In this document: one piece after another, positions 11,987-14,720 of the stretch
Numbering within the stretch: position 1 is the stretch's first letter
How the letters are laid out: each line of letters opens with the position of its first letter
Assembly (NCBI RefSeq): GCF_010550675.1
Contig: NZ_JAAGOA010000004.1
Span: 186,001-250,000 of the forward strand
Direction of reading: 5' to 3'
DNA: 64,000 nt
From: Phytoactinopolyspora halotolerans
GTDB taxonomy: Bacteria; Actinomycetota; Actinomycetes; Jiangellales; Jiangellaceae
Made by a program: the position numbers and the translations under genes
The notes under the pieces: model-generated
Databases searched by the model: none
Told to the model about the DNA's origin: nothing
Seen by the model: only the letters and a program-made list of their open reading frames with translations

Positions 11987-12391
11987 CTATACGGGTGCGG
12001 AGTCGGCGACCTTCGACGGCACGTCGTCGGCGCGCGTGACATCCCGGTACCACTGGATCTTGTTGCTGATGCGCTGCTGCTGCGTATTGAGGTGCGCGAT
12101 CTTCTCCTGCACCGTCGCGTCGTGCTGTTCCAGCAGCGCGATCCGCTCTGGGATGGTGTCGTCGCCGTTGCGGCACAGCTCGGCGAACCGCAGCATATCC
12201 GCGATCGGCATGCCCGTGTCCCGCAGGCACTGCACCATGCCGAGCCAGCCCAGGTCATCGTCGTCGTAGGTACGACGTCCGCCGGAGGTACGGGCGATGT
12301 CCCCGAGCAGACCGATGCGCTCGTAATACCGCAAGGTGTCCAGGCTGAAGCCGGTCTTGGCTGCCACCTGCGAAGGCGTGTATGTGGCCAT
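11987..12391 (-). CDS. MerR-family transcriptional regulator (AdhR/NmlR-like)
   Basis: A 134-aa protein. Residues 3-70 are the MerR winged helix (YTPSQVAAKTGFSLDTLRYY, then ERIGLLG and GRRTYDDDDLGWL), followed by a long dimerisation coiled coil (about 80-118). Cys55 in MVQCLRDTGMPI and Cys73 could serve in thiol sensing as in AdhR/NmlR-type regulators; this is inference. The ATG at 12391 is 7 nt from a -10 of a promoter with a 19-bp spacer holding the palindrome ACCTGGAG/CTCCAGGT, so it should autoregulate. The same promoter precedes the aldo/keto reductase gene at 13776. Confidence 0.92.
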   Translation of the reverse strand: MATYTPSQVAAKTGFSLDTLRYYERIGLLGDIARTSGGRRTYDDDDLGWLGMVQCLRDTGMPIADMLRFAELCRNGDDTIPERIALLEQHDATVQEKIAHLNTQQQRISNKIQWYRDVTRADDVPSKVADSAPV

Positions 12392-12398
12392 GGCGACC

Positions 12399-12429
12399 AG
12401 CTTGCCACCTGGAGTGCGCTCCAGGTCAA
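12399..12429 (-). promoter_or_regulatory. MerR-type promoter of the merR-like gene
   Basis: On the minus strand, -35 TTGACC (12424-12429) and -10 CAAGCT (12399-12404) are separated by 19 bp, the over-long spacer typical of MerR-regulated promoters. The spacer carries the dyad ACCTGGAG/CTCCAGGT (12407-12426). The -10 lies 7 nt before the ATG at 12391, so the message would be leaderless. Confidence 0.7.
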
Positions 12430-12555
12430 GGTCCAGTCCACGGGCAACGACGGAGTATCGGACGGTGCGGCCGCAATCGGGTGCTGGTGGCGGGGACGCG
12501 ACAGCCGTGCCGGCACCGCCCCTCGACGGAAAGCACCTGCAGTGCGCCACAGACC

Positions 12556-13077
12556 TCATGGCAGCGGGCACTCGAACACGCGCCAACAGATGTCGTTCCG
12601 TCGCCGTTGGTCCTCGATGACCACGTCACGGATCGCTTCGGGGAGCTGCTCGCGTTGCCACGCACACTCGAGGCGACCGGCACAATCCTCAGCCTCCGCG
12701 GCCCCAGCGCGAGCCGCCTTGATGGCGTAAGCTGCCGCTCCGAGGTTGTGCTCGGCGACGTGCGCCACGCATGCGGCTTGACCTGCGGCGTAGGCGGCAT
12801 GCCGAGCCGCTCCCGTCAACTCCCGCGCCGCCCCCATCGCATGGCCACCCGCCGCACGGGAGGCCATCATCGTCATCGACCCTTGCGCCCAGGCACGAAT
12901 CGACTCGATCGCTTCACGAGGTCTCGTGTCCGAAGGGCATTCAGCCTCGAAGAAGTGCAACACGTGTTCGGCACACGCCGCTGCCCATAGCCCATGCAGG
13001 CGATGGTCGGCGTCGGTGAGCAGGCCTCCTCTGCGAATCGTGATGAGGCGAGGGTCGCGCTCCCTGGGGAGGATCAC
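12556..13077 (-). CDS. Imm5-like putative immunity protein
   Basis: A 173-aa all-alpha, Ala/His-rich protein that resembles the actinobacterial Imm5-like 'putative immunity protein' family. It shares the N-terminal HRLHGLWAAACAEHVLHFFE, then RPREAIESIRAWAQG, MASRAAGGHAMGAARE, an Ala-rich region containing AGQAACVAHVAEHNLGAAAY, and the ending WQREQLPEAIRDVV. The family name comes from linkage to polymorphic toxins, but no toxin gene is near this copy, so its role here is open. The GTG at 13077 has TACCCT (complement of 13084-13089) 6 nt upstream, suggesting leaderless expression. Confidence 0.75.
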   Translation of the reverse strand: MILPRERDPRLITIRRGGLLTDADHRLHGLWAAACAEHVLHFFEAECPSDTRPREAIESIRAWAQGSMTMMASRAAGGHAMGAARELTGAARHAAYAAGQAACVAHVAEHNLGAAAYAIKAARAGAAEAEDCAGRLECAWQREQLPEAIRDVVIEDQRRRNDICWRVFECPLP

Positions 13078-13083
13078 GATCCA

Positions 13084-13089
13084 AGGGTA
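13084..13089 (-). promoter_or_regulatory. Putative -10 hexamer of a leaderless promoter
   Basis: TACCCT on the minus strand ends 6 nt before the GTG at 13077 of the Imm5-like gene. Confidence 0.4.
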
Positions 13090-13700
13090 GGGCGCGTCGG
13101 CGGGTGCTCCGAGAGTGCTGTCCGCCGAACGAAGGGTGCGGGAGCGACGTCATCGAAAGAGCACAACCGCGACTGGAAAGCGACGGGCCGCTCGAATGTC
13201 GGCAAGAGATCTGCACCCGTCCGCTGGGCGTCCAGACCTTCGACCGCGCGCATGACGGGAGAGGGGTGGTTGATGGTGACGGTGGTGTGCACACGGCCAG
13301 CAGGCGATGGCGGCGGTGTGGATCTCGGACGAACGTAGCCAAGGCGCGGAGGTGGGCAGAGGTCAGGCGGGGGTGGGCAGAACGAGACCGACTGTGTGAT
13401 CTGTCGTGGGGGTTCTGGTGGGTGCGACGGCTTGCGTGTGCGGTCGTGGTGGTTCTGGCCGCACAGAGCGGCTGGGAGTCGCACGAGTGATCGCACGACC
13501 TGCCAGGGCGTGGTTTCTGCGGTCGGCATTCACGCGGCCGTTGGCACGACCGCGATGAAGCTGGCTCATCCTCACATGACCGTCCACACGAGCCGACGGA
13601 ATCGGCTCGTTGTCACACGACAACCCGCACGGCGGCCGGGAGTCGATCCGTCACGGCCGGGCTCGGGAGCGTGCAGGGGCGAGCGGAGGGAGAGATTCCC
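13090..13700. other. Long intergenic region without a convincing gene
   Basis: About 0.6 kb with several open frames on both strands, but none shows actinobacterial coding bias, a family match or a ribosome site. The right half (13479-13640) is rich in GCACGAC/CACACGAC motifs. It resembles, in order and spacing, the spacer at 24150-24310, suggesting a diverged non-coding repeat. Confidence 0.5.
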
Positions 13701-13708
13701 ATGCTGGC

Positions 13709-13739
13709 TTGACCTGGAGCGCACTCCAGCAACGAAGCT
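13709..13739 (+). promoter_or_regulatory. MerR-type promoter of the aldo/keto reductase gene
   Basis: -35 TTGACC (13709-13714) and -10 GAAGCT (13734-13739) have a 19-bp spacer containing TGGAG/CTCCA dyad symmetry. The stretch from -35 through TGGAGCGCACTCCAG is identical to the promoter of the merR-like gene at 12391, strong evidence of a shared regulator. A 36-nt leader with GAGGAGGA follows. Confidence 0.7.
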
Positions 13740-13775
13740 AATGCTGACCCACGCAGACCATCGAGGAGGACAGAC

Positions 13776-14720
13776 GTGGAGAAGCTCAACGTGGCGCTGG
13801 GGACGATGCACTTCGGCACCAAAGTGCCCGAGGACGAGTCGCGTGATCTGCTCGACCGGTTCGTCGACGCGGGCGGCACAATGCTCGACACCGCCGACTG
13901 CTACTCGTTCTGGCAGAGCGAGACGGGGTTCGGAGGCCAGAGCGAGGAGGTGATCGGCCGCTGGCTGGCCGACCGCCCGGGCATGCGCGAGCGCGTGTAC
14001 ATCAGCACCAAGGTGGGCGCCGAGCCGACCGTCGTCGGCGGGTTCCCCGAGCACAAACAGGGCCTCTCGGCGGACAGCATCGCCCGCGGGATCGAAGGCA
14101 GCCTGAAGCGGCTCGGCGTGGATCGGGTCGACCTGTACTGGGCGCACATGGAGGACCGGTCCGCGGACCTGGCCGAGACGGTGGACGCGTTCGGCGAGCT
14201 GGTCCGCGCCGGAACCGTGGACCGGCTGGGGGTGTCGAACCACCCGCTGTGGATGGTGGAGCGTGCGCGGCAGCTTGCCCGGGCGCACGGCCAGGCCGGA
14301 TACACCGCCATCCAGCACAGCTACTCGTACCTTCAGCAGCGCCCTGGCACCAGGATCGAGGGCAAGGTTCACCGCTTCGGCAACCTCACCGACGACATGC
14401 TCGATTACGTCGACAGCCACGACGACATGTGGGCGTGGGCCTACACGCCGCTGCTGGAGGGCGCTTACAGCAAGCCGGAACGCCTGCACGAGGTGTACGA
14501 CCACCCGGGCACGACGCGGCGACTCGCCGCGCTGGACGAGGTGGCGGCCGAACTCGGTGCCACCCGCAACCAGGTGGTGCTCGCCTGGCTGATCGGCGGC
14601 ACGCCGTCGATCACGCCGATCGTCGGGGTCAGCAACGCCGCGCAGCTCGACGAGGCGATGGCCGGTGTGTCGCTGACGCTCAGCGCGGATCAGCGGGCAC
14701 GGCTGGACGCCGCCGGCTGA
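13776..14720 (+). CDS. Aldo/keto reductase
   Basis: A 314-aa (beta/alpha)8 NADPH-dependent oxidoreductase of the aldo/keto reductase superfamily, reducing carbonyls to alcohols in the cytoplasm. The catalytic tetrad is visible: Asp and Tyr in LDTADCYSFW (residues 37-46), Lys in YISTKVG and His in LYWAHMED. The cofactor-binding C-terminal part includes GVSNAAQLDEAM. The GTG start is preceded by GAGGAGGA. The upstream MerR-type promoter suggests induction by a reactive aldehyde or similar electrophile through the MerR protein encoded at 11987-12391; the actual substrate is unknown. Confidence 0.93.
   Translation: MEKLNVALGTMHFGTKVPEDESRDLLDRFVDAGGTMLDTADCYSFWQSETGFGGQSEEVIGRWLADRPGMRERVYISTKVGAEPTVVGGFPEHKQGLSADSIARGIEGSLKRLGVDRVDLYWAHMEDRSADLAETVDAFGELVRAGTVDRLGVSNHPLWMVERARQLARAHGQAGYTAIQHSYSYLQQRPGTRIEGKVHRFGNLTDDMLDYVDSHDDMWAWAYTPLLEGAYSKPERLHEVYDHPGTTRRLAALDEVAAELGATRNQVVLAWLIGGTPSITPIVGVSNAAQLDEAMAGVSLTLSADQRARLDAAG

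Follow-up and report, generated by a model that had tools for sequence, protein, structure and literature searches.

A MerR-type regulator and two aldo/keto reductase genes of Phytoactinopolyspora halotolerans are preceded by conserved, dyad-centred promoters with 19-bp spacers

Promoters under the control of MerR-family regulators have been described to possess spacers of 19-20 bp, in which the activated protein kinks a central dyad so that the -35 and -10 boxes act as though they were 17 bp apart; the promoters of CueR, CadR, SoxR and BmrR enclose the binding site in spacers of this length (PMC9909328, PMC5045206). For the NmlR clade, PMC4776306 reports an absolutely conserved cysteine (Cys54 in Haemophilus influenzae, Cys52 in Bacillus subtilis), mutation of which abolishes the response to formaldehyde, a divergent arrangement of nmlR-adhC-estD, and, in AdhR (YraB) of B. 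subtilis, a carbonyl-responsive MerR protein with several enzyme genes as targets. The present analysis concerns a merR-like regulator gene (merR), an aldo/keto reductase gene (AKR1) and the promoter-like sites ahead of both, 1.3 kb apart in a window of 64,000 nucleotides, the whole stretch of DNA analysed, from the actinobacterium Phytoactinopolyspora halotolerans (contig NZ_JAAGOA010000004.1). A sequence-only reading of this window had proposed a two-gene MerR regulon with identical promoters and an electrophile- or aldehyde-responsive switch at Cys55 of the regulator. The arrangement observed is real, conserved and well delimited, with a regulon better defined than was proposed, and of a known kind, that of NmlR-like MerR proteins with activation by distortion.

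The merR gene lies on the minus strand (11987-12391; ATG at 12391 as the most likely start, stop ending at 11987; 134 amino acids). Its product exceeds the Pfam cut-offs for PF13411 (62 bits), PF00376 (44.7 bits) and PF09278, possesses the N-terminal MerR winged helix-turn-helix (PF13411, PF00376) and no separate C-terminal sensor domain, and contains Cys55 and Cys73 as its only cysteines. AKR1 is located on the plus strand (13776-14720; GTG start, 314 amino acids; PF00248, E 1.2e-54), and its candidate catalytic residues Asp38, Tyr43, Lys79 and His124 have their counterparts, D, Y, K and H, at the aligned positions of the solved aldo/keto reductase (AKR) 8xr2. The sequence-only reading had placed both open reading frames correctly, including Cys55, and a search of the window bore out the positions of both 31-bp sites. 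The merR promoter/operator (12399-12429, minus) reads TTGACC TGGAGCGCACTCCAGGTGG CAAGCT, with the -35 box TTGACC at 12429-12424, a 19-bp spacer, the -10 box CAAGCT at 12404-12399 and the dyad ACCTGGAG-CGCA-CTCCAGGT at 12426-12407, while that of AKR1 (13709-13739, plus) reads TTGACC TGGAGCGCACTCCAGCAAC GAAGCT, with the -35 box TTGACC at 13709-13714, again a 19-bp spacer, the -10 box GAAGCT at 13734-13739 and the dyad CTGGAG-CGCA-CTCCAG at 13714-13729. The spacers, formerly called identical, agree in their first 15 of 19 bases but differ in the last four, which together with TTGACC leaves 21 contiguous bases common to both sites. Within the window these two 31-mers are the sole matches at up to three mismatches, and 100 dinucleotide shuffles yielded none. 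Because the ATG of merR (12391) begins only 7 nt past its -10 box, the merR mRNA is probably leaderless, and that of AKR1 probably has a leader, since a Shine-Dalgarno-like AGGAGG read from the sequence (13764-13769, plus) stands 6 nt ahead of the GTG. The proposal of a MerR-family regulator with long-spacer, dyad-centred promoters before merR and AKR1 is thus supported.

The proposed scan for the 31-bp pattern was carried out on the own genome (G000, 7.3 Mb) with the geometry TTGANN-TGGAG-N4-CTCCA-N6-A-N3-T and yielded one additional exact target. There are exactly three sites with no mismatch. One immediately precedes merR, one AKR1 and the third another aldo/keto reductase gene, akr2, and all three show the 19-bp spacer with the dyad inside; the reversed control pattern gave no match at up to one mismatch and one at up to two. 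The third site, outside the window (G000:C4:25198-25228), reads TTGACC TGGAGCGCGCTCCAGTTCA TAGCGT and precedes akr2 (L005:5263-6270; 335 amino acids, approximately 40% identical to AKR1), which was assigned by its PF00248 domain (E 2.1e-58), the alignment of the catalytic tetrad having covered AKR1. With this site the regulon comprises at least three promoters, and the description as a two-gene regulon has to be abandoned. A gene for a 7-bladed beta-propeller lactonase (PF10282; L005:4117-5202, on C4) overlaps with its stop codon the start of the akr2 site (L005:5199).

Two further sites in the own genome, at two mismatches (against one match of the reversed control), carry other half-sites. 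One, TTGACT TAGAGTGCACTCTAAGCTC TAGCGT with a 19-bp spacer and TAGAG/CTCTA, belongs to a paralogous MerR gene on C12 (G000:C12:94647-95065; L007, L119; 41% identical, the nearest paralog in this genome) that has its own downstream AKR gene. The other, on C9 (G000:C9:101723-101753; L118), is a TCGAG/CTCGA version of the promoter ahead of a gene for a luciferase-like oxidoreductase. Both are treated here as putative circuits apart from the merR regulon, and the difference between TAGAG and TGGAG suggests insulated specificities. Near the other 18 MerR matches of the own genome, the C12 case was the only dyad of the same geometry. For five site-bearing genes that had first been named by eye or by BLAST, Pfam upheld the family names.

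The geometry could be followed across relatives in 118 unique matches to TTGAC-N-TGGAG-N4-CTCCA in the loci collected. Apart from the own-genome scan and a scan allowing up to one mismatch, the patterns by which these loci were fetched did not contain the -10 box. Nevertheless, a box of the form nAnnnT stands 19 bp from the -35 box in 111 of the 118 sites, with none at 15-18 bp and 0-3 at each other spacing between 13 and 26 bp; an earlier, slightly wider pattern had given 55 of 59 at 19 bp. Since the 118 sites are related by descent, these counts do not represent independent events. Beyond the -10 box an ATG or GTG, counted as a codon by position rather than as a start codon confirmed for each gene, follows at 6 nt in 50 sites and at 7 nt in 55 (105 in total), compared to a background of 1.5% per position, an arrangement which, judged by position, would be as in leaderless mRNAs.

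Conservation was traced first within the family, of which 22 genomes were searched (an order-level search returned the same 22). A close MerR is present in six, five of the genus including the own genome and in addition G021 (E ≤ 6.2e-51, the next at 2.5e-21). Loss of the sites in front of the orthologous genes would have spoken against the proposal; instead, the sites are kept. The site immediately precedes all six merR orthologs, own included, G001 deviating by one mismatch, and also both same-genus AKR1 orthologs, namely the own gene and that of G002 (83% identical), where the promoter reads TTGATC TGGAGTGCACTCCAGCATT CAGGCT with 19-bp spacing and dyad intact. Likewise, the akr2 site occurs in four of four orthologs (own, G001, G004 and, with one mismatch, G002). 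Elsewhere in the family the site precedes further AKR genes (G003, G004, G021), and in G021 the TGGAG/CTCCA version of the promoter also stands before a gene for a luciferase-like oxidoreductase (L038).

Beyond the family, 393 genomes of the class were examined, with a close MerR defined by E ≤ 1e-30. It was found in 40 genomes and the site in 66, whereas the reversed control occurred in three (G222, G260, G263). Regulator and site coincide in 32 genomes, 8 have only the regulator, 34 only the site and 319 neither; the site is accordingly present in 32 of 40 genomes with a close MerR versus 34 of 353 without it (Fisher p 2.3e-21, uncorrected for phylogeny). Four of the eight genomes with a close MerR and no exact site have close variants of it upstream of merR (L085, L088, L089, L091), and the other four (L076, L077, L080, L082) belong to a single genus, g22. 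From the opposite direction, 25 site loci were examined out of 30 obtained for 105 places, and in 21 of them the sequence retrieved includes a relative of the MerR gene. In other actinobacterial families the MerR gene and a homolog of AKR1 (about 50-59% identical) are neighbours in divergent orientation, and the region that separates them contains one or two sites. An alignment-based search for named relatives, where a single-sequence search had found none, gave 584, and the best 80 include Streptosporangiaceae, Microbacteriaceae, Micromonosporaceae and Glycomycetaceae; among these 80 and with a relaxed pattern, the site lies near MerR in 54, a divergent AKR homolog upstream in 37, and both in 27. 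A maximum-likelihood tree of 91 AKRs places AKR1 of the window in a set of 25 rows (100/98) that consists mainly of MerR-linked AKRs and also includes the unlinked AKRs of G012 and G015; the orthologs of akr2 cluster with an AKR from Plantactinospora, which is itself divergent to a MerR gene with a site.

As judged from sequence, the promoters of merR and the AKR genes closely fit the distortion model. We regard it as probable that an NmlR/AdhR-like MerR protein drives merR, AKR1 and akr2 by DNA distortion, with a carbonyl or other electrophile as the likely trigger at Cys55. At each of the three promoters a dimer of the short protein would occupy the TGGAG-N4-CTCCA dyad inside the 19-bp spacer. 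This spacer would keep the -35 and -10 boxes out of phase and the promoters hence nearly silent or repressed. Once modified or liganded, MerR would kink the dyad so that the boxes lie as if 17 bp apart, and RNA polymerase could start. The inducer would most likely be a reactive carbonyl or another electrophile acting at Cys55, and AKR1 and akr2 would reduce carbonyls with NAD(P)H.

For the identity of the regulator, NmlR (NF041849) is the best NCBIfam model with 99.7 bits, and a profile of 14 orthologs compared with solved structures retrieved HI_0186 (5e01) as the best match (E 2.3e-34), with a cysteine of which, as the closest solved relative, Cys55 aligns. We presume HI_0186 to be NmlR. Cys55 is retained in all 30 close orthologs examined of the 40 found and in all 14 rows of the alignment, and two more distant relatives (L063, L068; 43-44% identical) also carry it. 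Its presence in 74 of the best 80 named relatives was not used as evidence, since the search employed the peptide pattern CLRDTGMP and the share is thereby biased.

Several results weigh against the reading preferred here. The score of 99.7 bits misses the equivalog cut-off of NF041849 (175 bits), so that the protein is not filed as NmlR itself. In genus g22, five of five MerR orthologs (L073, L076, L077, L080, L082) have no site in the 160 nt upstream; in G298 (merR locus L073) the contig with merR does contain an exact site, far from that gene. With the relaxed pattern, the neighbourhood of MerR lacks a site in 26 of the best 80 named relatives. The fetched loci of the AKR1-like genes of G012 (57%) and G015 (56%) contain no half-site. 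Position 55 in the 21 MerR genes of the 25 site loci is occupied by Arg in 12, Cys in 8 and Met in 1, and the Arg/Met55 relatives (39-45% identical) mostly have an AKR gene in the same locus. Since these relatives stand beside the same sites, the operator architecture is independent of the cysteine, and electrophile sensing by way of Cys55 is to that extent only plausible. The switch proposed by the sequence-only reading is favoured by the conservation of Cys55 and its alignment with HI_0186, and disfavoured by the 13 of 21 site-locus regulators that do without the cysteine: the protein resembles NmlR/AdhR, but the case for Cys55 as its sensor is weaker than first proposed.

The same 13 proteins favour the alternative that the circuit and the distortion are as described, but that MerR responds to the binding of a small molecule, such as an AKR substrate, an aromatic compound or a quinone, the cysteine being a trait of the lineage; six of the best 80 named relatives likewise have Arg55 (45-49% identity), four of them with the site. 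Against this stand the invariance of Cys55 among the close orthologs, its recurrence in L063 and L068, the absence of a separate ligand domain from the short protein and the alignment of Cys55 with the cysteine reported as essential in NmlR/AdhR (PMC4776306). We hold this alternative to be rather unlikely, though it is the strongest competitor of activation by an electrophile at Cys55.

It is improbable that MerR acts mainly as a repressor or autoregulator of promoters that are never strongly activated, or that one of the sites is under the control of a MerR paralog. The own genome does offer 18 other MerR-like matches; however, simple repression would not require the 19-bp spacing, which is strictly conserved, and the sole paralog with a comparable site, that on C12, has another half-site and its own AKR gene, which points to separated specificities. 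Still less probable is a metal-responsive regulator of the CueR, CadR or ZntR type that runs the AKR genes in a metal-stress response. Metal-sensing MerR proteins generally possess a C-terminal pair of metal-binding cysteines, the metal loop. The regulator has only Cys55 and Cys73, hence no such pair, and Cys73 is shared by just 8 of the 30 close orthologs. Some similarity to metal sensors exists in the profiles (CueR 52 bits, CadR-PbrR 44 bits) and in PDB matches to CadR/CueR, yet the scores are much lower than that of NmlR and far under their cut-offs, the PDB matches are weaker than HI_0186, and no metal transporter lies before any of the three exact sites. That the two window sites are a chance match or a recent recombination copy without function, as their 21 shared contiguous bases might suggest, is a negligible prospect: chance was rejected by the shuffles, the reversed control, the cross-species conservation and the geometry of 111 of 118 sites, and G002 has both sites in synteny despite unrelated intervening sequence, its AKR1 site having diverged to TTGATC/CATT/CAGGCT without loss of the dyad or the spacing.

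The separation of merR and AKR1 differs between genomes. In the window, unrelated sequence with a gene for an Imm5-like putative immunity protein (12556-13077, minus; PF21805) lies between them, and in G002, the nearest relative, the interval (L093:6650-8543; G002:C5) holds RibD_C, AHSA1-like and ArsR-like genes, both promoters being retained in either genome despite the split. Relatives of the Imm5-like gene (88-90% identical) are found in G002 and G021 on contigs other than those with merR, so that the gene seems to have moved. According to lists of open reading frames alone, the stretch adjoining merR differs again in G001, G003, G004 and G021, which marks it as a variable spot. In our reading, merR and AKR1 would once have been a divergent pair, which two insertions then split. 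In the roughly 630 bp that separate the AKR1 site from the Imm5-like gene (13078-13708), the listed open reading frames appeared unconvincing by eye, without closer appraisal.

Compared to the described systems, the regulator shares with NmlR of Haemophilus and Neisseria the short form without sensor domain and the cysteine aligned in HI_0186, and its relatives show a divergent layout of regulator and target as in nmlR-adhC-estD (PMC4776306). It differs in that its targets are AKR genes instead of adhC/estD, in its score under the NCBIfam cut-off, in its actinobacterial origin, in the ATG or GTG 6-7 nt past the -10 box of most sites, and in the 1.3 kb between regulator and target in the window. 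AdhR is similar in its carbonyl response, conserved Cys52 and several enzyme targets, but these are adhA, yraC and yraA rather than AKR genes (PMC4776306). CueR, CadR, SoxR and BmrR, for their part, are metal, redox-cluster or drug sensors; the promoters described here carry the half-site TGGAG/CTCCA. By its sites the regulon controls no thiol-dependent formaldehyde dehydrogenase (adhC/adhA), the three exact sites of the own genome fronting merR and the two AKR genes. The literature searched contained no account of an actinobacterial regulon in which an NmlR-like protein controls AKRs, which is weak evidence of absence, as most subscription journals lay outside its coverage.

We put forward tentatively, and as a possibility with somewhat less than even prospects, that this is a widespread and previously undescribed actinobacterial thiol-switch regulon, in which near-leaderless promoters with 19-bp spacers would place AKRs under an NmlR-like MerR with invariant Cys55, and in some species also a luciferase-like oxidoreductase, perhaps of the F420 type. 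NAD(P)H reductases would thereby offer a defence against carbonyl stress in addition to the mycothiol route, and differing half-sites (TGGAG, TAGAG, TCGAG) would insulate paralogous circuits from each other. What had been a guess from two sites becomes a testable regulon with three sites and a single geometry in 111 of 118 promoters, and the relatives with Cys55 and with Arg55 on the same kind of operator form a natural contrast, which can show whether the cysteine senses in NmlR-like proteins.

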